NCBI RefSeq assembly: GCF_001476815.1
Contig: NZ_LDSL01000104.1
Span: 1-42,115, forward strand
From: Pseudacidovorax intermedius
Lineage (GTDB): Bacteria > Pseudomonadota > Gammaproteobacteria > Burkholderiales > Burkholderiaceae_C
Length of the DNA stretch: 42,115 nt
Direction of reading: 5' to 3'
The notes under the pieces were generated by a model that made no database searches, was not told where the DNA came from, and saw only the letters and a list, made by a program, of their open reading frames with translations. Positions within the stretch are counted from its first letter, which is position 1. Each line of letters begins with the position of its first letter. Made by a program: the position numbers and the translations under genes. Below are positions 1-42,115 of the stretch, one piece after another.

Positions 1-2140
1 AAGCCCGACTGGATGTTGGCCAGCGAGGCGTCGCTCAGGTAGAGGCTCCCGGGCGTGCCGCCGCCGCTGCCGCCCAGCACCACCGTGCCGGTCGGGTCCG
101 TGGGGCTGATGGTGAGCGTGGCACCGGCGCTGCGCACCGGCGCGGCGATGGTGATGTCGGTCGAGCGCAGGACGATGTCCTTGCCGCCCGCATCCACCGC
201 ATTGGAGATGGTCTGGGTGCCGCCCAGCGTCGCCACGTCGGTGGCGCCGCCGCGCGAGCCGGAGCCCGAGGCGCCCACGTCCGAATAGACCTGCACCGAC
301 CCGGTGGCGAACACCACCACGTCCTGCCGCGAGGTGCTCGACACCGTCAGCGACTTCGCATCCACCACGATGGACTTGGGGCTGAAGGTGAAGCCGTTCA
401 CCTTCTCGCCCACGCCGTTGAGCGCGGTGATGGTGATGTTGCCGCCGACCGCCTGCAGCATTGGGCCGCCCGCCTGGCGCAGCACGGTGCCGTTGGCGAA
501 GAAGTTGTTCTGCTCCTGCGCGTTGAGGCCCGTCGCCACGATCCTGCCGGTGGCCTGGTCCATGGTGAAGTTGCCGCGGCGCAGTGCCCAGTCGATGCCG
601 GCATCGAAACCGTTGCCGGCACGCAGCCAGCCCAGGCTGCTGTCGATGTTGGTGACGGCACCCTTGAGTGCCCGCACCGTCAGGTCGCCCGAGCCGCCGG
701 CATGCACGCCGGCGCCCAGCAGCACGTCGCCGCCCTCGGCCGCCAGCACGATGCTGCCCTGGTGGGCGCTGCCGCCCGTGGTCGAGATCTCGCCCAGGAT
801 CTGCAGCGTGGTGCCGGCCGTGAGGTTGACCAGCCCGGTGGTGGCATGCACGCCGGTCCCGGGACCGGAGCCCGCCGCCACGGTGAGCGCACCGCCGCGC
901 GTGATGATGGACACGCCGCCGTCGGCCTGCTGGTTCACCTGCTGCAGGATCAGCCCGTCCACTTCCTCGATGAACACGGCGCCGCTGACGCTGTTCACGA
1001 AGTCCAGCGCGCGGACCTGGATCTCCAGCGGATTGCCGTTCTCGCCGATGCCGCCGGTGGAGCGGATGTAGAGCAGCGCATCGCTGGCGATGATGTCGGT
1101 CGTGCCTTCGGCCACGTCCAGCACGCCGCCGGCCACGATGCTCAGGGTGCCCGCATTGGTGGTGCGCAGCTTGCCCAGCATGATGTGGCTGCCCGCCGTC
1201 ATCGTGATGCTGCCGCTGCCGGCGTTCACCACGGTGTCGCCCGTCATGTCCAGCACGCCGGCGCCGGCGTCCAGCACGACGTTGCCGCCGAGCGTCGTCA
1301 CGTCGCCCGCGGCGGCCATGCTCAGGCCGCCCGCGCCACGCAGCGTGACCGCGCCGGTGGCCGTGGTCAGTGCCTGGTTCACGGTCAGCTTGCCGGCCGT
1401 GGTGATCAGCTGGATCGACGCCGAGCCGACCGCCTGGATCGCGCTGTCGACCGTCATCGCGCCGCCGGACTGCAGCAGCACCGCCGCATGGCTGGTGCTC
1501 AGCGCCTGCGCCACGGTCATGCCGTCCTTCTCGTAGATGGTGATGGCCGAGCCGGCCGTCACCGTCAGCGTGGTGGCGTCGATGGCACTCACCACCGCGC
1601 CGTTGACCAGCTTGCCGCCCGTGACCGAGCCCGCGGCCGTCAGCGTCACCGCACCGGCCGTGGCCATGTTGTCGATGACGATGCTGCCGGTCTTCGAGAC
1701 GATGGTCACGATGCCCGCAGTGCCCGTGATCGAGCCGATGCTGACGTTGCCATCGGCCTGGATCGTGATGTTGCCGCCCCTCATCACCAGGCTGGAGATC
1801 GACAGGTCGCCGCTCTCGAAGATGGTGAGGTTGCCGGCGCCCGTCATCTCGACGGACAGGGTGTCCACCGAGGTCTTGAGGGTCAGGTCGTCGCCGGAGG
1901 TCACCTTCAGGTCGTGGGCGGTGAGCGTGCCGCCCACCGTCAGCGCATGGCCGGCGCTCAGGTTGAGCGTGCCGCCGCTGCTGCCGCTGCCGACGTTCAG
2001 GTCGGAGACGACGATCAGGTCGCGGCCGGCCGCCAGGGTGATGGACTCGCCCGCATGGACGTCCATCTTCACCACGCTCAGGTTGCCCGTGACGGACAGG
2101 CTGGCATTGCCCGGCGCGCGCTGGGGAACGATGAGGATGT
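1..2140 (-). other. Filamentous-haemagglutinin-like beta-helix, part 3 (to window edge)
   Basis: About 710 residues of highly regular rungs: NLSVVKMDVHAGESITLAAG, DLSISSLVMRGGNITIQADG, VSIGSITGTAGIVTIVSK, SIQLITTAGKLTVNQAL, DVLLGAGVHAGGSGDLTV. Near the edge it contains NFFANGTVLRQAGGPMLQAV and SLTVSSTSRQDVVVFATG, then DLTISAP-like strands ending TISPTDPTGTVVLGGSGGG. The reading frame is still open at position 3, so the C-terminus, any cell-wall or outer-membrane anchor and any type I secretion signal lie beyond the low-coordinate edge. Confidence 0.75.
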
Positions 2141-11100: not shown

Positions 11101-14100
11101 AGGCCGGTCATGACGATCCGGCCGCCCGCGTCGAGCGTGTTGAACTGCGCGGTGCCCGTCGTGCGCAGGCTGACCTCGCCCGCATGCACCTGGGTGCCGG
11201 CCTTGATGACGATGTCGCGCTGCGCGGTGAGTTCGCCGCGGATCTCCAGCGTCTGGCGCGCGTCGATGACGATGTCGGCATTGAGGCCGCGGGCGATCAG
11301 GTCGCCCTCCATCACCACGTTGCCGGCCGGCGACAGCTGCATGCCGCCCGACAGCGTTTCCAGCAGGCTGGTGGCCGACAGGTGCACGTTCTGGTTGCCC
11401 AGCGCATTGGTGCCGGCAAACATGTTGATGGCCGAATGGCCACGGATGGCGCCGGAGATGGTGATGTCGCCGCCGGGCGCATTGGCCCGGCCGAGGTTGA
11501 CCACCGAGCCGCGCGCGCTGGCGTCCAGCGCATAGGCGCGGCCCGAGCTGGCGGTCGCGCCGCCGTCCACCTGCGTGAAGCCCAGCAGTTCGGCATGGCC
11601 GCCGGCCACGGCGGCGATGGCGAACCGGTAGGCGCCGCTGGTCAGCATGAGGTGGCCATCGGCGAGGCGAACCTTCAGGCCGTAGGTCGCGAAGTCCGGG
11701 ATGGCGTCGATGGCGGCCTGCAGGTCCGCCGCCAGGCCGGCGATGCCGGTGTTGCCCGTGGTGGCCGAGGCGGCCAGGCGCACCACCTGGCTCACGGTGC
11801 GGCTGCCGTCCTGCACGCTCAGCGTGAAGGCCACGTCCTGCGTGATGCGGCCGCTGGCGTACTGCATGAAGTCCGCCGCCACCAGCTCCTGCGTCCATTC
11901 GGGCGTGAGCACCGACAGGCTGCCGGCCGCCGACAGCGACAGCGTGCTGTCCTGCTGCGTCGTGCGCAGGTGCACCGCGCCGCCGACGACGATGCCGTCG
12001 GCCAGCCACGGCTCGGCCTGCGTGGCCGTGCCGGTGCCGGTGCCGCCGCGCACGTCGATGGTCTTGCCGGCCGTCAGGTCGCGGCCCAGGCGGACCTGCT
12101 GGCCCGCCACGATGGTGATGACCGAATCGCCGCCGAAGCTCTGCGCCGTGCTGCCCAGCGTGAAGCCGTCGGCATCGCGGTGGTCCACCACCTGGCCGCC
12201 GGCCACCAGCTGGCCCAGGATCTCGGCGTCCTGCGAGGCGCTGACGCGGATCTCGCCATCGGCATGCTGCGTGGTGACGCGGGCCGCGGCCGGCATCTTC
12301 ACGCCGATGCCGTCGGCCAGGCTGAAGCCGCCGGCCAGGTCGACCAGGTGGCTGGCGCGGATGGTCGCGCCCACCTCGATGCTGCCGCCCGAGGCCGTCT
12401 TGGCCTGGCCGCCCAGGTAGAGCTGGCCCAGCGAATGCAGGCGCACGGTGCCGTTGCCGGCCGACCAGTCCAGGTCTTCGCTCAGCAGGCGGCCGTTGGC
12501 GTCGAAGGTCTGGCGCATGGTCGCGCCGGACAGGATGCTGCCCGCGATGGTGACGCCGCCCTGGGCGTCCACCGACACCAGTCCGCCGGACTGGTCGCTG
12601 GTGAGGCCGGCCGCGTTCAGCCCGCCGGCACTGCCAATGACCACGGCCCAGCCCTGGTCGTCGGCACTCAGCGCCTTGGTGGTGGTCAGGGTGACCGACT
12701 TGGCGGCCTGCAGGCCGGCGTCGACCAGCACCTGCTGGCCGGCCTTGACCACGATGGTGGAATCCGGGCCGCTCCAGGTCACGCCCTGGGCGCCGATGGT
12801 GCCGCCGGCCACGATGGCGCCGTGCAGTTCCACGTCCTGGCTGCCGATGACGGTGATGCTGCTGCCGGCGCGCGTGGTGTTGAGCGTCGAGGACGCGTTG
12901 ACGTACACGCTGGTGCCGGCGGCATTGGCGCCGTTGCGGTCTGTGCCGTCCAGCTCCACGCCGCCCACGAGCGTGATGTTGCCGTTGACGTTGGCTTGGC
13001 CTTCCCAGTACAGCCAGCGGTCGGACTGCATGACGAGGTCGGAGCCGGCGCCCAGCAGGTTGATGTTGCCGCGCACGATGACGTCGTCGGCCGTGGAAAC
13101 CACGAAGTCGGCGTCGTCCTGCAGCGTGGTGATGGTGCCGGTCAGCAGGAAGCCGAAGCCGCGCTGGCCCAGCAGCGGATGCGGCTCCAGCACGCGGATC
13201 TCGTCCACCGCGCCGTCGTTGTTGGCGTCGTAGGCGTACACCACGTACTTGTGGCTGCCGTCGCTCACCACCCAGCGGTTGGTGTCGGCCACGGTGACGT
13301 CGGCGTTGCGGTAGTCGATGCCCTCGGTGAAGGAGGTCATCAGCTGCTTGCCCGCCGGGGCGGCGGCGTTGTAGTACACCTTGCCGCCGTAGGACGTGAA
13401 GCCGCTCTGGTCCAGCACGCGGAAGAGCTGGTCGCCCGTGAGCGAGGACAGCGCCGCATGGTCGGCCGGACGCGCCACGTCGGCCCAGCGCAGGCCGCTC
13501 ACGGTGTAGTCGGTGCCGGCCTTGAAGCTCAGGTGGTACTGCTCGCCCACCGGCTTGGTGGCGTTGTAGTACACGGCGCCGTCCCAGCGGGCATAGCCCA
13601 GCTGCGCCAGCACCGCGTTCTGCTGCTCGATGCCCAGCTGCTCGAAGCCCTGGCCCGTGGCCGGGCGCGTGAGGTTGCCCCAGGCGATGTCGGCATTGCT
13701 GTAGTCCTTGCCGTCGCCCTCCACCAGCGTGCCCAGCACGCGGCCGGTGCCGGCGTTGTAGAACACCTGGCGGTCGACCTGGTCGTAGCCCAGGGACTTG
13801 AGCACCACGGCGCGCTGCGAGGGGTTGAGGTCCTCGAAGCTGGCGCTGTCCGTCGGCCGGGCGACACCGCCCCAGTCGATGGCGTCGAGGTTGTAGTCGG
13901 CGGCCTGGCCCTGCGCGAAGCCGTCGACCACGCGCACGTTCTTGGCCGCGTCGGTCTTGATGAAGTGCAGGCCTTCCAGCACCTCGTAGCCCATGGCACG
14001 GGCCACCACCTTCTGCTGCGCGGCCGTGAGGTCGCCGAAGGCCGCACCCGCGGCCGGCGCACCGGCGCTGCCCCAGTAGATGCTGCCGTTGGCGTAGTCG

Positions 14101-17100
14101 GAGGCCGGGCCCTGGGTGAAGGTCGACACGGCCTTCTTGCCCGGCGCGGCGTTGTAGTTGAAGAAGTTCTTGTAGCCGGTGCCGTGGTCCAGGAAGTCGG
14201 CCACGATCTGGCGCTGCTGCGCGCTCAGCTGGCTCCAGGCGGCGTCGGCGTCGGGAATGGGCGCGATGGGCGTGCCCGCATCCACGCCGGGGCCGAACCA
14301 CAGGTCGCCCGGCATGGAATAGAAGTCGAAGGTGTAGCCCAGGGCCTCCGCCACCACCATCTTCTGCGCGCCGCTCAGCGCGTCGAAGCCGGTGCCGGCG
14401 GCCGGCGCGCTCACGCCCGCGGCGGCCCAGCCGATGCGTGCGTTGTCGTAGTCGTAGGCCGGGCCCTGCGTGAAGCCCGTGAGGACCGCCATGGTGCCGT
14501 CGGCGGCCGTGCGCGTGAACACCAGGCCGTCGTAGGTGGCATAGCCCAGCTGCGTGGCCACGGCCTTCTTCTGCGCCAGCGTGAGTTGGTCGAAGCCGGC
14601 GTTGGCCGCCGGCGCACCCGCGTCGCCCCAGTGGATGTCGGCATTGCGGTAGGCGACCAGCTCGCCTTCGGTCAAGGCCGTGCGGAAGGTGTGGGTGGCG
14701 GCATTCCAGTAGCCGCCCTGGTCGTAGGTGGTGTAGCCCAGCGAGGCCACCAGCGTGGCCTTGGCCGCATCGCTCAGCGCGTCGAAGGGCGTGTAGTTGG
14801 CCAGCGAGACGGCGCTGGCCACCGAGGCCAGCGGCGTGTTGCCGGCGCCGAACAGCGAACGCAGGTCCACATGGATCTGGCCCTGGTTCAGCGCCGAGAC
14901 GATGGCCGCGAACTTGCCGGCATCGCTGGTCGAGGCCAGGGTCTTGCCCGGCAGGGTGTCGAAGTAGTCGGCATGCGGGTCGCTCACGGCGCCCGCATCG
15001 ATGCGCAGCGCGCCGGCCGCCACCAGGGCGCCGGAGAGCATCAGCTCGCCCGCGGTGCTGATGGACAGGGTGGCGCCGCCGCCGACCAGCAGCGGCGTGA
15101 GGCCGTCGGCCGCATAGCGCGCGCCGGACAGCACGGCGCTGCCCGACAGCAGGCCCATGGCGCCGGTGGCGCGCAGGTCGATGGTCGAGTTCGCGCCCTC
15201 GGCGGACAGCACCGCGCCCTCGAGCAGCTTGAAGGAGGTGCCGGCCGACAGCTCCATGCGGGCACCGGCGCCCAGCGCCTGCACGCTGGCGGCCATGACC
15301 ACGGAACCCGAGCCGGCCATCAGCACCTGGCCGCCGTCGGTCAGGTTGCGGATCACCGCGCCCTTGTCGGTGGTGATGCTGTTGGCCTCTGCGCCATAGC
15401 TCACCATGGCGCCCTGGCCGGTGGTGCCGGCGACGCGCACGTCCACCAGCGTATCGGCCGTCAGCCAGCCGCTCACCAGCAGCTGCTCGGTCAGGCGCAG
15501 GACCGTCTCGCGCGCATGCACGCCCGAATCCGGCGCGCCCATGGGCGTGCGCAGGTTCTGGCGCTGGACGTCCATCAGCCGCGCCTGGAAGCTCAGGCGG
15601 TCGGTGGACTGCACGTCGCCCACGATGTCGATGCGGTCGGCGATCAGCGTGGCGCCGTCGCGCAGCATGGCCGAGTAGTGCTCGGTGCCGATGGTGGCGT
15701 CTTCCACGTCGCCCACGTACATCGCCACGCCGGCGGCGCGGTGGCCGATGGTGATGCCGCTGAAGCCGTCCTTCAGCGCCGACAGGTCGCGCATGCCCAG
15801 CTCGAGGTAGCCGGTCTCGATGCCGAAGGAATAGTCGCCGCCGAACAGGCCCTGGGCCGCCGCGCCGATGCGGTAGCTCTGGCCGATGGACCAGGTGCGG
15901 ATGCTCAGCGCGCCGGTGCCCGACACATGGTCGTCGCCCGAGGCGAAGTCCACGTCGTCGGCCACGATGGCGATGCTGCCGCCGCCGGTGCCCGTGCTGA
16001 GCTGGCCGCTGGCCAGGGTCAGCGCCGCCTCGTGCGTCGCCAGCTGGATATCGATCAGGCCGTTGGGCGTGGTGAGGCCGCCGGCCGCATAGCCGTCGGC
16101 GACGATGGACAGGCCGTCGAGCTCGCGCACGACGATGTCCGAGAAGCCGGCACCCGCGGTGCCGCGGTTGACCACGTTGAGCTGGTCCACCTGCGTGGTC
16201 AGCGTGCCGCGCAGGCCGGCCGCGTCGATGCTCAGCATCGCCTCGGGCAGCTTCAGCAGCGTGGCCTGGGTCACGTCCACGACGCCGGCGCTGGACAGGT
16301 GCAGCGAGGTCTTGCCCCAGCTTGCGCCGCCGGTCATCTTGAGCGCGGTGCCGGTGCTGGCGGTGTCGGTCACCTCGATGCGGTCGAGCGCATCGTCGAA
16401 GTTGATGACGCGGTCGCCGCCGTTGATGGTGGTGGCGAGCTGGTGGTCGCCCAGCACCAGCGGCGTGCTGCTGGAGAAGGCGCTGAGCACCAGGCGGTCG
16501 TAGTCCGAGCCGCTCTTAAGGTTGAGCGTGCCGGGGCCGGTGACGTAGATGGTGTTGTTGCCGGTGCCGGTCTCGACGTTGTTGGTGCCGGCGCCGACGT
16601 AGATGACGTCGTTGCCGCCGCCGCTCTTGATGGTGTTGACGCCGTCGCCCATGTCGACGATGTCGGCGCCGTCGCCGCCCACGAAGCGGTCGTTGCCTGC
16701 CCCGCCCTCGAAGCGGATGCCGCCCACGTCGCCGCTGGCGAACTGGTCGTTGCCCGCACCGCCGCGCACCACGCTGCCGGCGCCGCCGCCGAGGATGACG
16801 AAGCTGTCATTGCCCTCGCCGCCGTCGAACTGAAGCTGCGCGCGCACGTGGCGGCCGACGTAGATCGAGTCGTTGCCGCGGCCGCCGTTGGCCACGATGT
16901 GGTTCACGTTGGTGAAGCTGGCCGACTCGCCCAGGGAGCTGACGGTGACGACGTTGCTGTCCTTCTCCTGCTCGACCGTGTAGGCCTCGCCGATGATGTC
17001 GTCGTAGACCGTGTTGCCGTAGCGGTTGCTCGTGTCGCCCATGTTCAGGTAGAGCGTGTCGCCCACCTGGTAGGCGATGCGCGGCGGATCCGCCCACGAC

Positions 17101-26100: not shown

Positions 26101-29100
26101 CTGCCCGCCGCCATCTTCTCGCCCATCAGCGCCAGGCCGAACTGAACGTTGTTCAGCTGCACGCCGGTGCCGCTGGCGCCGACGAAGCCATCGATGCCGG
26201 TGCCGCCGATGGTCAGCACGTCGACGGTCGCGGTGCTGCGGTCGGACAGGGTGACGGTCTTGCTGCTGCTCTTCTCGAAGGCGAAGTCGCCACTCAGCTG
26301 GGCGAAGCCGAAGACGTCCAGCGTCAGGTGCGCCGATGCCTGCATCAGCTTGCCCTTGCTGCCGTCGAGCGACAGGTCCAGGCTGGTGCCGGTGCCCGTC
26401 GCGACGGACAGGCTGGTCTTGTTCGCGCCGGTGTATTCGACGACGGCGTCGTTGGCGGTGCCGGCCTGGTTGACCGCGATGGCGATGGCGCCGGCCGACA
26501 GCGTCAGGCCGTCGACGCCCACGATCTGGGCGCTGGTGGCGGTCGCTTGCAGGCTGGTCCAGGTGCGCGCGGGCGTAGTGGTGCCTGCGGCCATGTGCTG
26601 GCTCATCAGGGCGAGGCCGAACTGCGCGTTCGTCAGGCTCAGGCCGACGGCGTTGCTCTGGCCGCCGTTGGCGCCGATGAAGGCGTTGATGTTGGTGCCA
26701 CCGATGGTCAGGACGTCGGCCGTGATCTGCTCGTGCGCGGCGTTCGCCAGCGTGACGGTCTGGTTGCTGCTCTTCTCGAAAGCGAAGTCACCGGAGAGCT
26801 GGGCGAAGCCGAACACGTCCAGCGTCAGGTGCGCCGATGCCTGCGTCAGCGCGCCCTTGCTGCCGTCCAGCGACAGGTCGATGCTGGTGCCCGTGCCGGT
26901 CGCGACGGCCAGCGTGGTCTTGTTCGCGCCGGTGTATTCGACCACCGCGTCGCTGGCGGTGCCTGCCTTGTTGACGGCAACGGCGATGCTGCCGGCCGAC
27001 AGTGTCAGGCCGTCGACGCCCACGATCTGGGCGCTGGTGGCGGTCGCTTGCAGGCTGGTCCAGGTGCGCGCGGGCGTGGTGGTGCCTGCGGCCATGTGCT
27101 GGCTCATCAGCGCCAGGCCGAACTGCGCGTTCGTGAGGCTCAGGCCGACGGCGTTGCTCTGGCCGCCGTTCGCACCAATGAAGGCGTTGACGCTGGTGCC
27201 GCCAATGGTCAGGACGTCAGCGTTGACTTGCTCATGTGCGCTGTTCGCCAGCGTGATCGTCTGGTTGCTGCTCTTCTCGAAGGCGAAGCTGCCCGACAGC
27301 TGGGCGAAGCCGAAGACGTCGAGCGTCAGATTGCCCGAAGCACGCGTGAGGCTGCCCTTGCTGCCGTCCAGCGACAGGTCGAGGCTGGTGCCGGTGCCCG
27401 TCGCGACGGACAGGCTCGTCTTGTTCGCACCGGTGTACTCGACGACAGCGTCACCGGCCGTGCCGGCCTTGTTCACCGCGATGTCGATGGAACCGGCCGA
27501 GAGAGTCAGACCGTTCACACCCACGATCTGCGCGCTCGTCGCGGTCGCTTGCAAGCTCGTCCAGGTGCGCGCGGGCGTGGTGGTGCCTGCGGCCATGTGC
27601 TGGCTCAACAGCGCCAGGCCGAACTGCGCGTTCGTCAGGCTCAGGCCAACCGCGTTGCTCTGGCCGCCATTCGCGCCGATGAAGGCGTTGATGCCCGTGC
27701 CGCCAATGGTCAGCACATCGGCGGTGACCTGCTCGTGCGCAGCGTTCGCCAGCGTGACGGTCTGATTGCTGCTCTTCTCGAAAGCGAAGCTGCCGCTGAG
27801 CTGCGCGAAGCCGAACACATCCAGCGTCAGGTTGCCCGAAGCACGCGTGAGGCTGCCCTTGCTGCCGTCGAGCGACAGGTCGAGGCTGGAGCCCGTGCCC
27901 GTCGCAACGGTCAGACTGGTCTTGTTCGCGCCCGTGTATTCGACGACGGCATCCCCTGCCGTGCCCGCCTTGTTCACCGCGATGTCGATGGAACCGGCCG
28001 ACAGCGTCAGCCCGTTCACGCCAACGATCTGGGCGCTGGTGGCCGTGGCTTGCAGGCTGGTCCAGGTACGCGCAGGCGTGGTGCTGCCTGCGGCCATGTG
28101 CTGGCTCATCAGGGCGAGGCCGAACTGCGCGTTCGTCAGGCTCAGGCCGACCGCGTTGCTCTGGCCGCCGTTGGCGCCGATGAAGGCATTGATGCCCGTG
28201 CCGCCGATGGTCAGCACGTCGGCCGTGACCTGCTCGTGCGCAGTGTTCGCCAGCGTGATGCTCTGATTGCTGCTCTTCTCGAACGCGAAGCTGCCGGAGA
28301 GTTGGGCGAAGCCAAAGACGTCGAGTGTCAGATTGCCCGAGGCACGCGTCAGGCTGCCCTTCGCGCCATCCAGCGACAGCGCGAGGCTCGTGCCGGTGCC
28401 CGTCGCCACGGACAAGTCGGTCTTGTTTGCACCGGTGTACTCGACCACGGCGTCGCCGGCCGTACCGGCCTTGTTCACCGCGATGTCGATGGATCCAGCC
28501 GATAGGGTCAGACCATTTACACCCACGATCTGGGCGCTGGTCGCGGTCGCTTGCAAGCTCGTCCAGGTCCGCGCGGGCGTGGTGCTGCCTGCGGCCATGT
28601 GCTGACTCATCAGCGCCAAGCCGAACTGCGCGTTCGTCAGGCTCAAGCCGACTGCGTTGCTCTGCCCGCCGTTGGCACCGATGAACGCATTGATGGCCGT
28701 GCCGCCGATGGTCAGCACGTCGGCGGTAATCTGCTCATGCGTGGCGTTCGCCAGCGTGATCGTCTGGTTGCTGCTCTTCTCGAAGGCAAAGCTGCCCGAC
28801 AACTGCGCGAAGCCGAAGACGTCCAGCGTCAGATTGCCCGAAGCACGCGTAAGGCTGCCCTTCGCGCCGTCCAGCGACAGCGCGAGGCTCGTGCCCGTAC
28901 CCGTCGCCACGGACAAGTCGGTCTTGTTGGCACCGGTGTACTCGACAACTGCATCGCCTACCGTGCCCGCCTTGTTCACGGCGATGTCGATGCTTCCAGC
29001 CGACAGCGTGAGGCCGTTCACGCCGACGATCTGGGCGCTGGCGGCCGTCGCCTGCAAGCTCGTCCACGTCCGCGCAGGCGTGGTAGTGCCTGCGGCCATG

Positions 29101-32100
29101 TGCTGGCTCATCAGGGCCAGGCCGAACTGGGCATTGGTCAGGCTCAGTCCGACCGCATTGCTCTGGCCACCATTAGCGCCGATGAAGGCGTTGATGCCCG
29201 TGCCGCCGATGGTCAAGACGTCGGCCGTAACCTGCTCGTGCGCGGCAGTCGCCAGCGTGATGGTCTGGTTGCTGCTCTTCTCGAATGCGAAGCTGCCAGT
29301 CAGTTGGGCGAAGCCGAAGACGTCCAGCGTCAGGTTGCCCGAGGCGCGCAGCAGGCTGCCCTTGCTGCCATCTAAGGAGAGGTCGATGCTGGTGCCCGTG
29401 CCGGTCGCAACGGCCAGCGTGGTCTTGTTCGTTCCGGTGTATTCGACCACCGCGTCGTTGGCGGTGCCTGCCTTGTTGACCGCGATGTCGATACTTCCAG
29501 CAGACAGCGTCAGGCCGTTCACGCCGACGATCTGCGCGCTGGTGGCCGTGGCTTGCAGGCTCGTCCAGGTACGCGCGGGCGTGGTGCTGCCTGCTGCCAT
29601 GTGCTGGCTAATCAGGGCCAGGCCAAACTGCGCGTTCGTCAGGCTCAAGCCAACCGCGTTGCTCTGGCCACCATTCGCGCCGATGAAGGCATTGATGCCC
29701 GTGCCACCGATGGTCAGCACGTCGGCCGTGACCTGCTCATGCGCAGTGTTCGCCAGCGTGATGGTTTGGTTGCTGCTCTTTTCGAAGGCAAAGCTGCCCG
29801 ACAACTGCGCGAAGCCAAAGACGTCGAGCGTCAGATTGCCCGAAGCGCGCGTCAGGCTGCCCTTGCTGCCGTCCAGGGAGAGGTCGATGCTGGTGCCCGT
29901 GCCGGTCGCAACAGCCAGCGTAGTCTTGTTCGTGCCGGTGTACTCGACGACGGCATCCCCTGCCGTGCCAGCCTTGTTGACCGCGATGTCGATGCTTCCA
30001 GCAGACAGCGTGAGGCCATTCACGCCGACGATCTGCGCGCTGGTGGCCGTGGCCTGCAGGCTCGTCCAGGTGCGCGCAGGCGTGGTGCTGCCTGCAGCCA
30101 TGTGCTGACTCATCAGCGCCAGGCCGAACTGCGCGTTCGTCAGGCTCAGGCCGACGGCGTTGCTCTGTCCGCCGTTGGCGCCGATGAAGGCATTGATGCC
30201 CGTGCCGCCGATGGCCAGGACATCGGCCGTCAGCTGCTCGTGCGTGGCGTTGGCGAGCGTGATGGTCTGGTTGCTGCTCTTCTCGAACGCGAAGCTGCCC
30301 GAGAGCTGCGCGAAGCCAAAGACGTCGAGCGTCAGATTTCCCGAAGCGCGCGTCAGGCTGCCCTTGCTGCCGTCCAGGGAGAGGTCGATGCTGGTGCCCG
30401 TGCCGGTCGCAACCGCCAGCGTGGTCTTGTTCGCACCGGTGTACTCGACGACCGCGTCACCGGCCGTACCGGCCTTGTTGACCGCGATGTCGATGGAACC
30501 GGCCGACAGCGTCAACCCGTTCACGCCAACGATCTGCGCACTGGTCGCGGTCGCTTGCAGGCTAGTCCAGGTCCGCGCAGGCGTGGTGGTACCTGCGGCC
30601 ATGTTCTGGCTCATCAGGGCCAGGCCGAACTGGGCATTCGTCAGGCTCAGGCCGACCGCATTGCTCTGTCCACCGTTGGCGCCGATGAACGCGTTGACGC
30701 CCGTGCCACCGATGGTCAGGACGTCAGCGTTGACTTGCTCACGTGCGCTGTTCGCCAGCGTTATGGTCTGGTTGCTGCTCTTCTCGAAAGCGAAGCTGCC
30801 CGACAACTGGGCGAAGCCGAACACGTCCAGCGTCAGGTTGCCCGACGCACGCAGCAGGCTGCCCTTGGCGCCATCCAGCGACAGCGTCAGGCTCAAGCCC
30901 GTGCCTGTCGCCACAGACAGGTCGGTCTTGTTCGCGCCGCTGTAGTTGACGACCGCACCGCCTGCGGTGCTGGTCTTGTTCACGGCCACATCGATGGCGC
31001 CGGCCGACAGCGTCAGCCCATCCACACCGACGATCTGGGCACTGGTCGCGGTCGCTTGCAGGCTGGTCCAAGTGCGCGCAGGCGTGCTTGAGCCTGCGGC
31101 CATGCGCTCGCCCATCAGGGCCAGGCCAAACTGGGCATTGGTCAGCTTCAGGCCGACTTCATTGCTCTGTCCACCGTTGGCGCCGATGAAGGCACTGATG
31201 CCCGTGCCGCCGATGGTCAGCACATCCACGGTCACGTTGCTGGCGTCCGACAGCGTGACGACCTTGTTCGCGCTCTTCTCGAAGGCGAAGTCGCCCGAGA
31301 GTTGCGCAAAGCCGAACACATCCAGCGTCAGGCTGCCCGACGCACGCAGCAGATTGCCCTTGGCGCCGTCCAACGACAGCGTCAGGCTCGAGCCCGTGCC
31401 TGTCCCGACGGACAGATCGGTCTTGTTCGTACCGATGTAGTTGACAACGGCACCATTGGCAGTACTCGACTTGTTCACCGCCACGTCGATGGCGCCGGCA
31501 GACAGCGTCAGCCCATCCACACCCAGGAACTGGGCGCTGGTGGCGGTCGCTTGCAAGCTCGTCCACGTGCGGGCAGGCGTGGTGGTGCCCGCAGCCAGGC
31601 GCTCGCCCATCAAGGCCAGGCCGAACTGTGCGTTGGTCAGGCTCAGACCAACCGCATTGCTCTGGCCGCCGTTGGCGCCGATGAAGGCGTTGATGCCCGT
31701 GCCACCGATGGTCAGCACGTCAACGGTGACGTTGCTGGCGTCCGACAGCGTGACGGTCTTGTTGCTGTTCTTCTCGAAGGCAAAGCTGCCCGACAGCTGG
31801 GCGAAGCCGAACACATCCAGCGTCAGGTTGCCCGAGGCACGCGTCAGGCTGCCCTTGCTGCCGTCAAGCGACAGGTCGATGCTGCTGCCCGTGCCCGTGG
31901 CGACGGACAGGTTCGTCTTGTTCGCACCGCTGTACTCGACCACTGCGTCACCCGCCGTGCCTACCTTGTTGACCGCGATGTCGATGCTTCCAGCAGACAG
32001 CGTAAGGCCATTCACACCGACGATCTGAGCGCTGGTGGCCGTGGCCTGCAGGCTCGTCCAAGTGCGCGCAGGCGTGGTGCTGCCTGCAGCCGTGTGCTGG

Positions 32101-35100
32101 CTAATCAGGGCCAGGCCAAACTGCGCGTTCGTCAGGCTCAAGCCGACCGCGTTGCTCTGGCCGCCATTCGCGCCGATGAAGGCGTTGATGCCCGTGCCAC
32201 CAATGGTCAGCACGTCGGCCGTGACCTGCTCATGCGCGGCATTCGCCAGCGTGATGGTCTGGTTGCTGCTCTTCTCGAAGGCAAAGCTGCCCGACAGCTG
32301 CGCGAAGCCAAAGACGTCGAGCGTCAGATTGCCCGAAGCGCGCGTGAGGCTGCCCTTGCTTCCGTCTAGCGATAGGTCGAGGCTTGTGCCCGTGCCGGTC
32401 GCAACAGCCAGCGTGGTCTTGTTCGTGCCGGTGTATTCGACGACAGCATCACCGATCGTGCCCGCCTTGTTTACCGCGATGTCGATGCTTCCAGCAGACA
32501 GCGTCAGGCCATTCACGCCGACGATCTGCGCGCTGGTGGGCGTGGCTTGCAGGCTGGTCCAGGTACGCGCAGGCGTGGTGGTGCCTGCGGCCATGTGCTG
32601 GCTCATCAGGGCCAGGCCGAACTGGGCATTCGTCAGGCTCAGGCCGACCGCATTGCTCTGTCCGCCGTTAGCGCCGATGAAGGCATTGACGCCGGTGCCG
32701 CCGATGGTCAGCACGTCAGCGTTGACTTGCTCGTGCGCAGTGTTCGCCAGCGTGATCGTCTGGTTGCTGCTCTTCTCGAAGGCAAAGCTGCCAGAGATTT
32801 GAGCAAAGCCGAACACGTCCAGCGTCAGGTTGCCCGACGCGCGTAGCAGGCTGCCCTTGGTGCCGTCCAAGGAGAGATCGATGCTGGTGCCCGTGCCGGT
32901 GGCGACGGACAGGTTCGTCTTGTTCGCACCGCTGTACTCGACGACAGCGTCACCGGCCGTGCCGGCCTTGTTCACCGCGATGTCGATGGAACCGGCCGAC
33001 AGCGTCAGGCCGTTCACACCGACGATCTGGGCACTGGTCGCGGTCGCTTGCAGGCTGGTCCACGTGCGCGCGGGCGTGGTGGTGCCGGCGGCCATGTGCT
33101 GGCTCATGAGCGCCAGGCCGAACTGCGCGTTCGTCAGGCTCAGGCCGACCGCATTGCTCTGTCCGCCGTTAGCGCCGATGAAGGCATTGACGCCGGTGCC
33201 GCCGATGGTCAGCACGTCAGCGTTGACTTGCTCGTGCGCAGTGTTCGCCAGCGTGATCGTCTGGCTGCTGCTCTTCTCGAAAGCAAAGCTGCCCGACAGC
33301 TGCGCAAAGCCGAAGACGTCCAGCGTCAGATTGCCCGAAGCGCGCGTCAGGCTGCCCTTGCTACCGTCAAGGGACAGGTCAATGCTGAAGCCGGTGCCCG
33401 TCGCGACGGACAGGCTCGTCTTGTTCGCACCGGTGTACTCGACCACGGCGTCGCCGACCGTGCCCGCCTTGTTCACCGCGATGTCGATGGAGCCGGCTGA
33501 CAGCGTCAGGCCGTTCACGCCGACGATCTGCGCGCTGGTGGCCGTGGCTTGCAGGCTAGTCCAGGTCCGTGCAGGCGTGGTGCTGCCTGCGGCCATGTGC
33601 TGGCTCATCAAGGCCAAGCCGAACTGGGCATTGGTCAGGCTCAGGCCGACCGCATTGCTCTGTCCGCCGTTAGCGCCGATGAACGCATTGACGCCCGTAC
33701 CGCCAATGGTCAGGACATCGGCCGTGACCTGCTCGTGCGCGGCGTTGGCGAGCGTGATGGTCTTGTTGCTGCTCTTCTCGAACGCGAAGTCGCCCGTCAA
33801 CTGCGCGAAGCCGAAGACATCCAGCGTCAGATGGCCCGAGGCCTGCAGCAGTTCGCCCTTGCTGCCGTCGAGCGACAGATTGACGCTGCTGCCCGTGCCA
33901 GTCGCCACCGACAGCGCGGTCTTGTTGGCACCGCTGTATTCGACGACCGCGTCGTTGGCCGCCTTGGCCTGGTTGAAGGCGAGCTGCACGCTGCCGGCCG
34001 ACAGCGTCAGGCCGTTGACGCCGGCAAAGTCGGCCTGCGTGGCGCTTGCCTGCAGGCTGGTCCAGGCGCGGGTGGGCGCCGGCTGGCCGGTGACGGACTT
34101 CTGGCTCATCAGGGCCAGCGCGAATTCCATGCCCGTCAGGCGCAGGCCCACGGCATTGGCCTGGCTGCCGTTGGTGCCGATGAAGGCGCTGATGCCCGTG
34201 CCGCCGATGGCCAGCAGGTCGGTGTCGACCTGCTCGTGGGCCGCGTTGGCCAGCGTCACCGTCTGGCTGCTCTTCTCGATCGCGAAGCTGCCCGACAGCT
34301 GCACGAAGCCGGACAGGTCCAGCGCCAGGTTGCCCGAGGCCTGCAGCAGGCGGCCCTTGGCGCCGTCCAGGGCCAGCGTGACGTGGGCGCCGTTGGTGCC
34401 GGTCGTCACGTCGAAGGCCGTGGTGCGGCCGTAGTCGACGACGCTGTCGCCCGCGTTGCGCGCCTGATTGACGGCCACGCGGATCTGGCCGGCGGACAGG
34501 GTCAGCCCGTCCACGCCCGTGATGGACGCACCCGCGGCCGTCGCCTGCAGGCTGGTCCAGCTGCGCGCCGGCGTGGTGCTGCCGGTGGCCATGTGCTGGC
34601 TGATGAGGGCCAGGCCGAATTCCACGCCGGTGAGTTGCAGGCCCATGGCGTTGGCGCGGCCGTGGCCGACGCCGGCGAAGGCGTCCAGGCCGGTGCCGCC
34701 GATGGCGAGCACCTCGGCGCCCAGCACCTGCTCGCCGCTGGCCAGGGTGACGTCGCGGCGGCTCCTCTCGATGGCCAGCTGGCCGTCGACGGCAAAGAAA
34801 CCGGCCACGTCCAGGCTGAGGTGGCCGCTGGCTTCCAGCAGTTCGCCGCGCGACGCCGCCATGTTCAGGGCGACCGACGTGCTGCTGCTCGTGGCCACCG
34901 AGAAGGCGTGCGCGCCGCTGAAGTCCAGCACCTGGTCGTTCGCACGGCTGGCCTGGTTGATGGCGATGCTGAGGCCGGAGACCTGCATCGTCAGGTCGGC
35001 CAGGCCCACCACGCTGGCGCTGCCCGCGGTGGCGACCAGCGTGGTCCAGTGGCGCGAGGCATCGGCCTGCGAGGTGGCCAGCGCCAGACCGAAGTCCACG

Positions 35101-38100
35101 CCCGTGAGCGCCAGGCCGGCCTTGGCGGCGCTGCCGCCGTTCACGCCGACGAAGGCATTGGCGCCATGCGCGCCCAGCGTGAGCAGGTCAACGGCCAGGC
35201 TGCTGCCGTCGGCCAGCGTGAGCGTCTCGACACTCTTGTTGAGCGCGAAGCCGCCCGAGACCTGGAAGAAGCCGTAGACGTCGATGTCCAGGTCGCCCTG
35301 CACCTGCAGCAGCTGGCCCTTGGCACCGGCCATGTTCAGCGTCATGACCGTGCCGGTGCCGGTGGGCACCGCCACGCCCTGCGCGGCGTAGTCGATCACC
35401 AGCGCATGGGCCGGCACGCCAGGGGTGCTGTGCGTGTAGCCGTCATGCACCTGCGACAGGCCGGGCGTCGCCACCTGGGCCGAGGCCGTGACGGCCAGCG
35501 CGGCGACGTCCACGCCCGCCAGGCTGCCGCCGAAGCGCACCACCAGTTCCTTGCCGTTCCAGAAGGTCGCTTCGACCTGGGCGCCGGCGAGGGACTGGTT
35601 GATGGCGGCGTCCAGCGCCGCGTTGATCTCGGCGCGGCCCGCGTCCAGGGCGATGCTGCCCGTGGTGTAGGTCTGGCCGCCGTGCGTGAAGCCCAGCGTG
35701 AAGCCACCGGCCAGCGCCTGCATGTCGAAGACCACGCGCTGCGCTTCGGCCACCGCCGCCTGGCCCTGGGCCAGGTTGTAGGGCTTGGCCGTGGCATTCA
35801 CCAGGCTGCCGAAATGCGTGGTGAAGTCGGCGATGTCGGTGTTCGCCTTGGCACCGGCGAACTGGACGTCGTAGCTGCTGAAGCGGCCGCCGGAGGCGCC
35901 GGCGTTGTAGCTCACGCTCAGCTCGCCGGCCTGGAAGCCGCCCATGGCGAGCAGGGCCGCCTGGATGTTGGCGGCCTGGGTCGCGGGATCGCTGCTGTAG
36001 GCGATGGCGGCCGTCGTGCGGCCCGCATATTCGATGGTGAACGAGCCGCTGGGCGCCGTCTCGGCCACGGTCACCGTGCTGCGCAGCGCGTTCAGGGATT
36101 GGCCGGCCAGGCTGCCGCCGAAGCCCACCAGGAAGGCGCCATTCGCGTCGGTGGACACGGTCACGCTGCCGCCGATGCCCGCGAGTGCGGCATTCAGGGC
36201 CGACTGCACCGCCGAGGCGCCGGCGCCGAGCGCGATGGCGCCGGTGGTGTAGGCCGAGCCGTTGTAGGTCAGCGAGAGCGTGTAGCTGCCCGCGGCCGCG
36301 GTGTCGATGGCCACGCGCTGCACTTCGCCCAGCGCCGCACCGGCCGCGCTGACGTTGGAGGCGCTGACGTGGCCGAACACGGTGCGGGTGCCCACCACGC
36401 TGATGTCGCCCACGTCCGTGCCCGCCAGGGCGCCGCTGAAGCTGATCAGGTAGCGATGGCTGCCCGTCGTCTTCTGGTCGAAGGTGACGCGGATGTCGTT
36501 GGCGTTCGCGTTCAGCAGCTGGACCAGCGCGGCCTTGATGTTGGCGGCGTTGAAGCTGACGCTGTTCTGTGCGAAGAATTCGGTCACCGAGCCGGCGACG
36601 CCAGCCACCGACAGGATGTAGCTGCCCACCGAGGTGTAGGGCGTGTCGAAGACGATCTGCTGCACTTCGCCCGTGGCGGTGCGGGCGGCCGAGACTTCGC
36701 CGATGGCGATGGACACCGGCGCCGGCACCACGCGCTCGGCCTCGATGACGATCTGCTTGACCTCGCTGGTGCCTGCCGCGGCCTGCGCGTCGGTGCTCAC
36801 GGTGGCGGTGATGCCGGCGGCCGTCAGGTGGACGCCCAGCGTGCCCGCGGCCTGGCCGGCCAGGCTGCCGATCAGCTCGATGGCGAAGCCCTGCTCGCGC
36901 GAGCCGGTCACGTGCACGTTGCCGGCGCCGACCAGCGTCTCCAGCGTGCGCGTCAGGCTGGCGATCAGCTCGGCCGTGCTCTCGCGGCCGGTCAGCGTGG
37001 CCGTGGCATCGGCGCCGCCGTAGCTCAACTTGAGGCTGCCGACGGCGGTGGCGGGCAGCTGCAGCGTCCACAGCGCGTTCTGCTGGTCCGAGGTGGCCGC
37101 CGTGGCCGGCACCTGCACGCCGCGGTTGATGTTGACGACGAGGTTGGAGGCGGCGACGTGCACGTCGTCCAGCCCCACGAAGGTGGCCAGCTGGGCCGAG
37201 GCCTGCAGGCTGGTGAACTTGTGCGCCGCATTGGCGCGGTCGACGGCGAAGAGCAGGCCGAAGTCGGCATTGCCCAGGCGCAGGCCCAGCGCATCGCTGC
37301 TGCTGCGGCCGTTGACGCCGGCGAAGGCCGTGATGCCGGCGCCGCCCAGGCTCAGCGTCTGGGCCTGGATCTGGCTGCCGTCGGACAGTGTGAGCGGCTG
37401 GGTCTTGCTTTCCAGCGCGAAGCTGCCGGAGACATTGAAGAAGCCGAAGACGTCCAGGTCCAGATGGGCCGTGGCGAGCAGCTGCGCGCCGGCGCTGCCG
37501 GCCATGGCCAGCGTGACGTGGCTGCCGGGCCCGGTCGCCACGTTCAGCGGCGCGGCCTGCCAGTCGATGACGTTGCCGGCCGGCGCGCTGGCCCGGTTGA
37601 CGGCCACGTGCACGTTGGAGACCACCGCCGTCAGGTCGCTGACGCCGACGAAGGAAGCGGTGCCCGGCGTGCTCGCGTTGCTGGCGATGTCCAGCGCGGT
37701 CCACTGGCGTGCGGTGCCGGTGGCGCCCGCGGCCAGTTGCTCGCTGGCCAGCGCCAGGCCGAAGTCGAAGCCGTTCAGCGACAGGCCGATGGGGCTGCTG
37801 CCGGTGATGCCGGCGAAGGCCTGCACCTGGCTGGCGCCGACCGTCAGCAGGTCGACGTCGACCTGGCTGCCGCCCTGCAGCGTCACGCGGGCGCTGCTCT
37901 TGTCGAAGGCGAAGTTGCCGCTGACCTGCACGAAGCCGAACAGGTCCAGGTCCAGCTGGCCGGCGGCGCGGACGGTGGCGCCCAGGGCGCCGTCCAGGTT
38001 CAGCGTCGCGCTGCTGGCGGCGCCGGTGGCCACCGTCAGCTGGTGGCTGCCGCTGAAGTCCAGCACCACGCCATCGGCCGCGGCGCGGTTGATGGCCACG

Positions 38101-41100
38101 GACAGCTGCGTGCCCGAGGCCTTGAAGCCATCGAGGCCCACGAAGGAAGCAGCGCCGGCGCTGGCCTGCAGCGTGCTCCACTGGCGCGGCGTGCCCTGGC
38201 CGGCGGCCAGGGTCTCGGTGGCCAGCGCGAGGGCCACGTCCACGTTCGACAGCGCGAAGCCCATGGCGCCATCGGTGCCGCCGCGCACGCCGGCAAAGGC
38301 GGACACGCCGTGCATGCCCACCGTCAGCAGGCGCACGGCCACGGCGCCGGATTCGTCCACGTTGGCGGTGGCGGCCCGGTCGGCCTTCTGCAGCGTGGCG
38401 TCGGACTGGCTCAGCGCGAAGCTGCCCGAGGCCTGCAGGAAGCCGAAGGCATCCAGCCGCAGCGTGCCGGCGGCGCGGGTCACGGCGCCGTCCTGGCCCT
38501 TCATGTCGAAGGCGATGGTGTGGCCGTTGCCGGTGTCGATCGCCAGCTGGGTCTTGCCGGCGCCGAAGTCGATCACCGACGCGCCGGCGGAGGCGCGGTT
38601 GATGTCCAGCCGCAGCGCCTCGGCGGCGAGTTCCAGGCCGGCCACGCCGGTGAAGGACGCCGAGCCGGCGGTCGCCTGCAGGGCCGTCCAGGTGCGGGCC
38701 GTCTGGCCGGCTGCCACCTTGTCGCTGGCCACGGCCAGCGCGAAATCCATGCCGGCCAGCTGCAGGCCGGCGGCCTGGGCCGTGCCGCCCGCCATGCCGG
38801 CGAAGGCGCGCACGTCGTGGCCGCCCAGGGTCAGCAGGTTCACGTCCACCGGACTGCCGCCGCTGGCGAGCACCACGGACGAGGTGGACTTGGAGAAAGC
38901 GAAATCGCCTTCGAGCTGCAGGAAGCCGAAGGCGTCGATGCTGAGGTGCCCCGAGGCGCGCAGCAGCGCCCCGTCGGCGCCGTGCATGCCGAAGGCGACG
39001 CTGCTGGCCGGCCCCGTGGGCACGCTGAGCGTGGTGCGCGCATAGTCGACCACGCTGGTGTCGCCCGCGGCGCGGTTGACCTGCACCGACAGCTTGCCGG
39101 CGCCCAGCACCAGGCCGTCGATGCCCACGAAGGAGGCGCTGTCGGCCGTGGCCTGCAGGCTGGTCCACTGGCGGGCGGTGGCGGTGCTGCCCTGGGGCAG
39201 CACTTCGCTGATGAGGGCCAGGCCCAGGTCCACGCCCGTCAGGCGCAGGCCCACCGGGTTGGCGCCCTGCCCGTTCACGCCCACGAAGGCCGAGATGCCG
39301 CGGCCGGCCAGGCTCAGCACGTCGACGTTGACGGCCGAGGCGGATTCGTCCGCCGGTGTGGCGGCCACGTCGGCCAGCAGCACCGTCTGGCTGCTCTTCT
39401 TGAGCGCGAAGTCGCCCTCGGCGCCGAAGAAGCCGAAGGCGTCCAGGTTCAGGTGGCCGGCCACCTGCAGCAGGGCGCCCTGGCGGCCGTCCATGTCGAG
39501 CGCGACGGCATCGGTGCCCAGGCCCAGGCGCAGGCCCTGCACCGCGTAGTCGACCACCGCATCGCCGGCGCGGCCGGCCTGGTTGACCGCCACGATCATG
39601 TCGCGGCCGGCCAGCGCCAGGCCGTCGATGCCGTGCAGGCTGGCGCCGGCCACGCGGGCCTGCACGCTGGTCCAGGTGCGCGTGGCGTCGTTGCGGTCGG
39701 CCAGCAGGGCGATACCCAGGTCCGCGCCCGACAGCGTCAGGCCGACCTCGTTGGCCTGGCCCTTGTTCACGCCGACGAAGGCGTTGGTGTTGGCCAGGCT
39801 CAGGTCCACCAGGCTGGCATCGACGGTGCTGCCGTCGGCCAGCACCACCGCGGCATTGCGCTTGTCGATGTTGACCTGGCCTTCGGCCCGCACGAAGCCG
39901 AAGAGGTTGAGCGCCAGGTTGCCATTGGCGCGCGTCTGCGCGCCCAGGCTGCCGTCCAGGTCCAGCGACACCGTGCCGCTGCCGGTGGCCACGCTGATGG
40001 CGTTGGCGCCGGCCAGGTTGGCCACCGCATCGCCCGCCTTGCCGGCGCGGTTGATGGTCACGCCCAGCTGGGTGCCGCTCACGCTGAGCCCGTTGCCCGC
40101 GCTGACCGACACGCTCGCGGCCGTGGCCTTGGCGGCCGTCCAGGTGCGGGTGGCGTCGCTGCGGTCGCTCATCAGCGCCAGCGCGAACTGCACGCCGGCC
40201 AGGTCCAGGTCCAGCGCGCTGCCGAGCAGGCCGGCCGAGGCGCTCACGTTGCTGGCGCCCACCGTGAGCATGTCCACGGCGATGGGGCTGCCACCGCTGG
40301 CCAGCTGCACGCTGCCCACGCTGCGGTGCAGCGCGAAGTCGCCGCTGGCGCGGAAGAAGCCGTCGATGTCCAGCAGGCCGCCGCGCACCGCGACTTCCTG
40401 CACGCCGGCCACCAGGCCGGCGCCGTAGGCATAGCTGGCGCTGCCCACCGTCACCGTCTGCGCGGCGAAGTCGCTGCCGGTGCTGTTCCAGCGCACGGCG
40501 GCGCTGGTGCCGCCCAGGGTGGCGGCGTCGCCCAGCGTGGCCTGCACGCTGCCCGAGGCCTCCAGCACGGTGCCGGACTGGCCCGCGGTCGTGACCACGC
40601 GCAGCGCCACCGACGCATCGCTCACGCCCACCTTGAAGCCGCCCGCCGCCAGCGACACCGACGCATGGCTGGCGATGACCTGCATCGCGCCGGTGGCCGT
40701 GTCCTTGCCGAAGGAGAAGTCGCCGCTGAGCACGAAGGCGCCCACCGTGGCGCTCAGGCCCTGGATGTCCACCACCGGCGTGCTGCCGGCGGCCATGCTG
40801 CCGAAGGTGTAGCTGAAGCCGCGGAAGTCCAGCTTGACGCCCGTGAGGTCGCCCGCCTGCTGGTTGAAGTGCAGCGTGGCCGAAGCCGCCGAGGCGTTGG
40901 CGAAGTCCCCGCCGTTGACGTAGGCGCCGCCCGAGGCCTCCAGCGCGATCTTGCCGCTCGTGTCCACCGACAGGGCGAAGGCCCCATGGTCGATGCCCAC
41001 CGACATGCCGCCACCGGCCATGCGCGCCGACACGTCGTGGCCCGCCGCCACGAACTGGTTGCCCGCCATCGCAAAGCCGAAGTCGCCCGAGACGGTGATG

Positions 41101-42115: not shown

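Follow-up and report, generated by a model that had tools for sequence, protein, structure and literature searches.

Giant LEPR-XLL proteins are already known, and larger bacterial proteins have been reported. A Vibrio LEPR-XLL member of about 8,000 amino acids is described with C-terminal RTX and serralysin domains (PMC10868602). Giant proteins of Omnitrophota are reported to reach 85,800 amino acids, with transmembrane and carbohydrate-degradation domains and a surface role proposed for some of the giants (PMC12057145). Cysteines are reported to be missing from lipases secreted by the type I route and from RTX S-layer proteins (PMC3034196).

The gene described here extends this known set. 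It shares with the LEPR-XLL proteins (NCBIfam NF012209, LEPR-8K) a giant size and, on a neighboring contig (C137), an N-terminal motif that scores above the family cut-off; compared with the Vibrio member, no Pfam RTX or serralysin domain exceeds its cut-off in the window. With the giant RTX adhesins and RTX S-layer proteins it has in common the lack of cysteine, an acidic composition, calcium-type motifs, and β-repeats, but its RTX motifs are few and lie mid-protein, and a SecA-like motor is encoded among its neighbors. A very large frame is common to this gene and the Omnitrophota giants, although the product is far smaller than 85,800 amino acids and the window holds no transmembrane or carbohydrate-degradation domains by Pfam. 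The neighboring SecA-like family matches SecA and accessory SecA2 over the motor core; in contrast to these, its frame is shorter (about 670 to 750 codons in most matches), and its gene is accompanied by those for HlyD-type adaptors and an M50 protease.

A Conserved Giant Gene

The window is the whole stretch of DNA that was analyzed, 42,115 bases, and comprises one entire contig (C7) of a 5.55-Mb draft assembly in 295 contigs (completeness 99.97%, contamination 0.22%). As the earlier note had reported, one minus-strand frame stays open throughout and has neither a start nor a stop inside the window:

3..42113, minus strand: open frame, internal part of the gene for a giant LEPR-XLL protein; 14,037 codons, with residue k at 42113-3(k-1)

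This frame contains 0 stops, against roughly 120 expected from the composition of the three codon positions and roughly 274 from overall composition, while the remaining five frames hold 8, 37, 210, 481, and 602. The GTG at 42110 is merely an early codon of the open frame, not the gene start. The GC content at third codon positions (GC3) is 0.947, and plus-strand frame 2, the antisense frame whose phase matches that of the gene, contains just 8 stops, with 6,669 codons uninterrupted by any; this run is an effect of the extreme GC3, not the sign of a gene. Because high GC also holds an antisense frame open over that distance, openness alone is weak evidence for a gene, and our conclusions rest on homology, selection, and composition instead.

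Conservation in relatives settles the reality of the gene, and with it the earlier suggestion of a very large bacterial gene. Pseudacidovorax sp. NFM-22 provides an ungapped full-length relative of 16,017 amino acids, from ATG to stop with no N. The gene of P. intermedius DSM 21352 (NZ_QQAV01000001.1; same genus, our G177) likewise runs from ATG to stop over 15,348 codons, although a 94-N run inside it leaves that copy not fully proven. Window residues 1 to 14037 align to the DSM 21352 protein in three best blocks at 53 to 62% identity, the first window residue corresponding to DSM 21352 residue 130 and the last to residue 11,408. A copy in a Pseudacidovorax metagenome-assembled genome has a 100-N gap, after which the frame is lost. 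Massilia sp. IC2-278 encodes a protein of 11,508 codons counted from the listed GTG; the likely ATG would give 11,494. Among 200 genomes of the bacterial family, 4 contain repeats like those of the window. LEPR-XLL leaders occur more widely (30/200 family genomes, 0/14 control genomes), with open frames of up to 14,318 codons.

Massilia sp. IC2-278 has another LEPR-XLL gene (2,930 codons) in tandem, directly upstream (L114-L115), and both of its LEPR-XLL proteins have similar C-terminal tails ending in W-x-E-D-L-x-L.

We considered whether the frame might be an assembly artefact produced by contigs mis-joined inside repeats. Such an error would be in keeping with a draft assembly of 295 contigs, with repeat-array copies that are 83 to 90% alike, and with a gene that is interrupted at repeat contigs. 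Yet the alignment to DSM 21352 extends over the whole window in three blocks, the NFM-22 gene is ungapped at 16,017 amino acids, and the window contains no exact repeat of at least 150 nt (nine repeated 127-mers remain). We regard an artefact, the mis-joining against which the earlier note had cautioned, as very improbable; the copy number inside the window array could still be wrong.

Selection was assessed on the closest two full-length relatives. Between NFM-22 and DSM 21352, dN/dS is 0.209 over 15,316 codons and ranges from 0.116 to 0.477 across 1000-codon bins; these complete relatives are under purifying selection in all 16 bins. For the window against DSM 21352, the values of 0.77 and 0.88 are uninterpretable because a GC3 near 0.95 holds synonymous change down. 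The strong selection for an intact product proposed earlier is supported in these two relatives. A repeat-driven, functionally neutral relic would account for the fast change in repeat number and for the same-genus genome G071, in which neither window-type repeats nor a LEPR-XLL leader was found. Purifying selection in every bin and the lack of any stop or cysteine speak against such a relic, which we consider scarcely credible.

Start, End, and Additional Pieces

Both edges of the window can be connected to other contigs of the same genome:

42024..42115, minus strand: where the gene enters the window (5′ side); these 92 nt match the end of C137 at 97.8% identity, and C137 holds the start and leader
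1..20, minus strand: where the gene leaves the window (3′ side); these 20 nt recur unchanged at the end of C53, where the same frame continues

The upstream contig C137 holds an ATG and the LEPR-XLL leader, which scores 38.7 bits against NF012209 (cut-off 17; the DSM 21352 leader scores 34.9 bits). In complete relatives the leader lies in the same frame as the remainder of the gene. The window covers an internal stretch of one giant gene, which begins with a LEPR-XLL leader and encodes a protein free of cysteine. Downstream, the frame proceeds onto C53 and repeat contigs: C123, C125, C127, and C149 are open tandem repeats with units of about 229 residues each, and C149 and C125 have 170 nt in common. 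C125 extends almost to the C-terminus of the relatives and then runs off its contig end, so the protein's own C-terminus was not recovered; C-terminal tails differ among relatives. The contig extension proposed in the earlier note succeeded at the start, on C137, and stopped short of the gene's own stop. If all pieces belong to one gene, they sum to about 24,600 amino acids, with their order and copy number unproven. The genome has just one N-terminal piece of this giant's type, which favors a single gene.

Elsewhere in this genome, C267 (L165/L215) bears a second, smaller LEPR-XLL gene with a 2,300-codon frame and its own complete SecA-like cassette.

Repeat Architecture and Turnover

The earlier note described protein motifs in register from one edge to the other. 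Twenty-five copies of one repeat motif do occur in register between residues 812 and 5832; they do not reach the edges, and the remainder consists of other repeats. From the N-terminal side, the window encodes the following:

24414..40373, minus strand: tandem β-repeats of about 155 to 169 residues per unit, residues ~581 to 5900, with an AlphaFold model
26274..35273, minus strand: expanded core of the array, residues ~2281 to 5280, where copies mostly span 165 to 167 residues
24111..24137, minus strand: calcium-loop-like motif DxNxNGxxD, residue 5993, putative function
22929..22955, minus strand: calcium-loop-like motif DxNxDGxxD, residue 6387, putative function
21768..21794, minus strand: calcium-loop-like motif DxNxDGxxN, residue 6774, putative function
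16689..16886, minus strand: short RTX-like stretch with four GGxGND motifs, residues 8410 to 8475, from motif count, tandem repeats, and a sub-cut-off Pfam match
13203..13229, minus strand: calcium-loop-like motif DxNxDGxxD, residue 9629, putative function
13194..14816, minus strand: region built of helix-plus-strand repeats (residues 9100 to 9640) that shares 41 to 73% identity with eight relatives; low-confidence model (pLDDT 60.6)
3..13193, minus strand: rest of the window toward the C-terminus, residues 9641 to 14037, long and β-rich, β-helix-like by eye only

AlphaFold modeled 400 residues of the array as all β (pLDDT 80.6, pTM 0.67), and a search with this model returned no confident structural match. 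The four calcium-loop motifs and four GGxGND motifs in the window compare with means of 0.1 and 0.34, respectively, in shuffled sequences. The RTX-like stretch scores 21.6 bits against Pfam HemolysinCabind, below the cut-off of 23, and a Pfam search of window residues 9401 to 14037 identified no family.

Adjacent copies of equal length in the array core are 83 to 90% identical in DNA. The repeat motif occurs 25 times in the window, 10 times in DSM 21352, and 13 times in NFM-22, and the NFM-22 protein exceeds that of DSM 21352 by 507 residues at one place, equal to three copies of 169. Protein length would drift through the gain and loss of whole repeat units.

Absence of Cysteine

The window frame encodes 0 cysteines in 14,037 residues, while the other five frames would encode 65 to 1,282. 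The gene's other pieces (161 residues on C137, together with C53, C123, C125, C127, and C149) also contain none, nor do the NFM-22, DSM 21352, and both Massilia proteins. For comparison, six cassette proteins have 27 cysteines in 3,446 residues. Fragments of other LEPR-XLL giants are cysteine-poor, not cysteine-free, at 21 in 35,062 residues, a count to which some fragments perhaps contribute in the wrong frame. The absence of cysteine suggests that the protein crosses the envelope unfolded.

A SecA-like Cassette beside LEPR-XLL Genes

Upstream of the giant gene, the DSM 21352 operon encodes, in order, SapC, an outer-membrane efflux protein, an HlyD-type adaptor, a second adaptor, an M50-protease/HlyD fusion, a SecA-like protein, and Lcl_C. 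In the window's genome, contigs C44 and C137 together give the order channel, adaptors, M50 fusion, SecA-like protein (its gene split between the two contigs), Lcl_C, SapC, and giant. The SapC gene therefore occupies opposite ends of the operon in the two genomes; in the window's genome the SapC and Lcl_C genes lie between the SecA-like gene and the giant (L050:1011-1781 and 1966-4986).

We defined a four-gene core consisting of the SecA-like motor, the M50-protease/HlyD fusion, and two further HlyD-type adaptors, and looked for it near 33 LEPR-XLL matches (37 rows minus the window genome's own C137, DSM 21352, G167, and G052, which were viewed separately). With a uniform fetch, the full core was found near 23 of the 33, and near 24 when one extra stretch was included (G082, fetched because of a match seen in an earlier search). 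No core gene occurred in any of 20 control stretches drawn from the same set of genomes, with one 20-kb stretch taken per control and up to two stretches per LEPR-XLL match. These counts are to be read with the knowledge that the cassette profiles were trained on the very loci counted and that the component thresholds, like the 500-bit class used below, were chosen after scores had been seen. Among the 24 core-bearing loci, a recognized channel is present at 7, SapC at 6, one or the other at 13, and Lcl_C at 0. Nine of the 33 matches do not have the full core, and six of these show nothing in the fetched stretches. The LEPR-XLL genes of G116 (L169), G127 (L205), and G128 (L201) are accompanied by the M50 fusion and adaptors with no SecA-like gene, possibly a variant exporter.

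The association extends to whole genomes. Scoring five candidates per genome, the M50 fusion profile matched in 30/30 LEPR-XLL genomes and 13/170 others (200 genomes in all); at 500 bits or more, the counts were 27/30 and 2/170. Since the genomes are related, Fisher values overstate their independence. In this bacterial family, LEPR-XLL genes are linked to a SecA-like ATPase, an M50/HlyD fusion, and two HlyD-type adaptors, often joined by an efflux-type channel or SapC. In the literature searched, to which preprints and most subscription journals did not belong, there was no description of LEPR-XLL giants paired with a SecA-like motor and M50/HlyD fusion. This pairing is the unexpected part of our results and may be new to a specialist.

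The M50 fusion scores 22.5 bits against Pfam M50, below the cut-off of 27.2, and its catalytic HExxH residues are invariant in 14/14 aligned sequences. The SecA-like profile, 783 residues long, aligns through residues 18-609 with SecA chains of solved structure (E 7e-186), the match ending near residue 609, and the protein scores 123.5 bits against PF07517 (SecA_DEAD; cut-off 24.6) and below every NCBIfam SecA cut-off. All 10 genomes examined had a SecA-like match, which sits on a contig with a giant piece in nine; in the exception, G206, the pieces are on other contigs. At 1e-20, SecA-like matches were detected in 22 of 200 genomes. Seventeen of these genomes carry LEPR-XLL; in the five without it, the frames span 923 to 964 codons, the size of housekeeping SecA. 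The Pseudacidovorax SecA-like protein keeps GK[S/T] and DxAD; its MAGRGTD and RQGDPG stretches are not kept, which places its motor activity in doubt.

The NFM-22 SecA-like protein (L109:14803-16800) has lost parts of helicase motifs that relatives in other genera retain.

Proposed Export and Role

We consider it reasonably probable that the giant protein forms a calcium-stiffened β-repeat fibre, secreted or held at the surface, that is addressed by its leader, exported by the cassette, and used for attachment or aggregation. In this proposal the chain would remain unfolded in the cytoplasm until its N-terminal leader is recognized; the SecA-like motor would then push it into a conduit made of the adaptors and the outer-membrane channel, with the M50 protease perhaps trimming it. 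Folding would take place outside the cell, where the fibre, stiffened by calcium, may serve attachment or aggregation. The adhesive role is the weakest step and is suggested by the resemblance to giant adhesins and S-layer proteins, while export by the SecA-like cassette is suggested by its genomic linkage to LEPR-XLL genes. A broader and more tentative idea, which we hold to be possible but somewhat doubtful, is that an undescribed secretion system handles the LEPR-XLL giants as its substrates: a SecA-type motor would take the place of an ABC transporter and drive a cysteine-free chain of over a megadalton, addressed at its N-terminus, through HlyD-type adaptors, the M50-protease/adaptor fusion, and an outer-membrane channel.

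Alternatively, the protein could be an ordinary type I secreted RTX adhesin, with its ABC exporter encoded nearby or elsewhere and the SecA-like cassette serving another purpose. Its RTX-like motifs and absence of cysteine recall the type I lipases and RTX S-layer proteins mentioned above (PMC3034196), and an ABC signature occurs on the genome's own C44 contig, some 7 kb from the cassette. In G066 (L177), an ABC transporter gene lies between a channel gene and an adaptor gene, forming a type I-like set that adjoins the SecA-like cassette. Set against this, the RTX motifs are few and mid-protein, with a Pfam match under its cut-off; a pattern scan, simple and run with no positive control, detected no ABC signature in 33 of 35 cassette stretches; and the seven neighbor proteins of the Pseudacidovorax operon include no ABC transporter. 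We judge type I export unlikely.

Two-partner secretion or an autotransporter-like route of the filamentous hemagglutinin (FHA) type, using the Sec pathway and an outer-membrane barrel, appears less probable still. The protein is long and β-rich with FHA-like repeats by eye, and in Pseudacidovorax the residues after the leader are fairly hydrophobic (mean 2.01 over 15 residues), which makes an ordinary Sec signal possible there. The neighboring genes, though, encode adaptors and an efflux-type channel, and in DSM 21352 neither the N-terminal 229 residues, where an N-terminal TPS domain would be expected, nor the C-terminal 809 have a Pfam match.

Should the cassette indeed be the exporter of the proposed fibre, a SecA relative would be powering transport across the envelope. 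Substrates could then be recognized in many genomes by their N-terminal leader, a defined gene set, and a simple composition test based on cysteine avoidance, and the system would be relevant to the question of how polypeptides above 1.4 million daltons, the mass of the window part alone, leave the cell. In a Lake Baikal study, transcripts were assigned to a Limnohabitans LEPR-XLL protein (PMC9611531), a hint that genes of this type are transcribed in nature.
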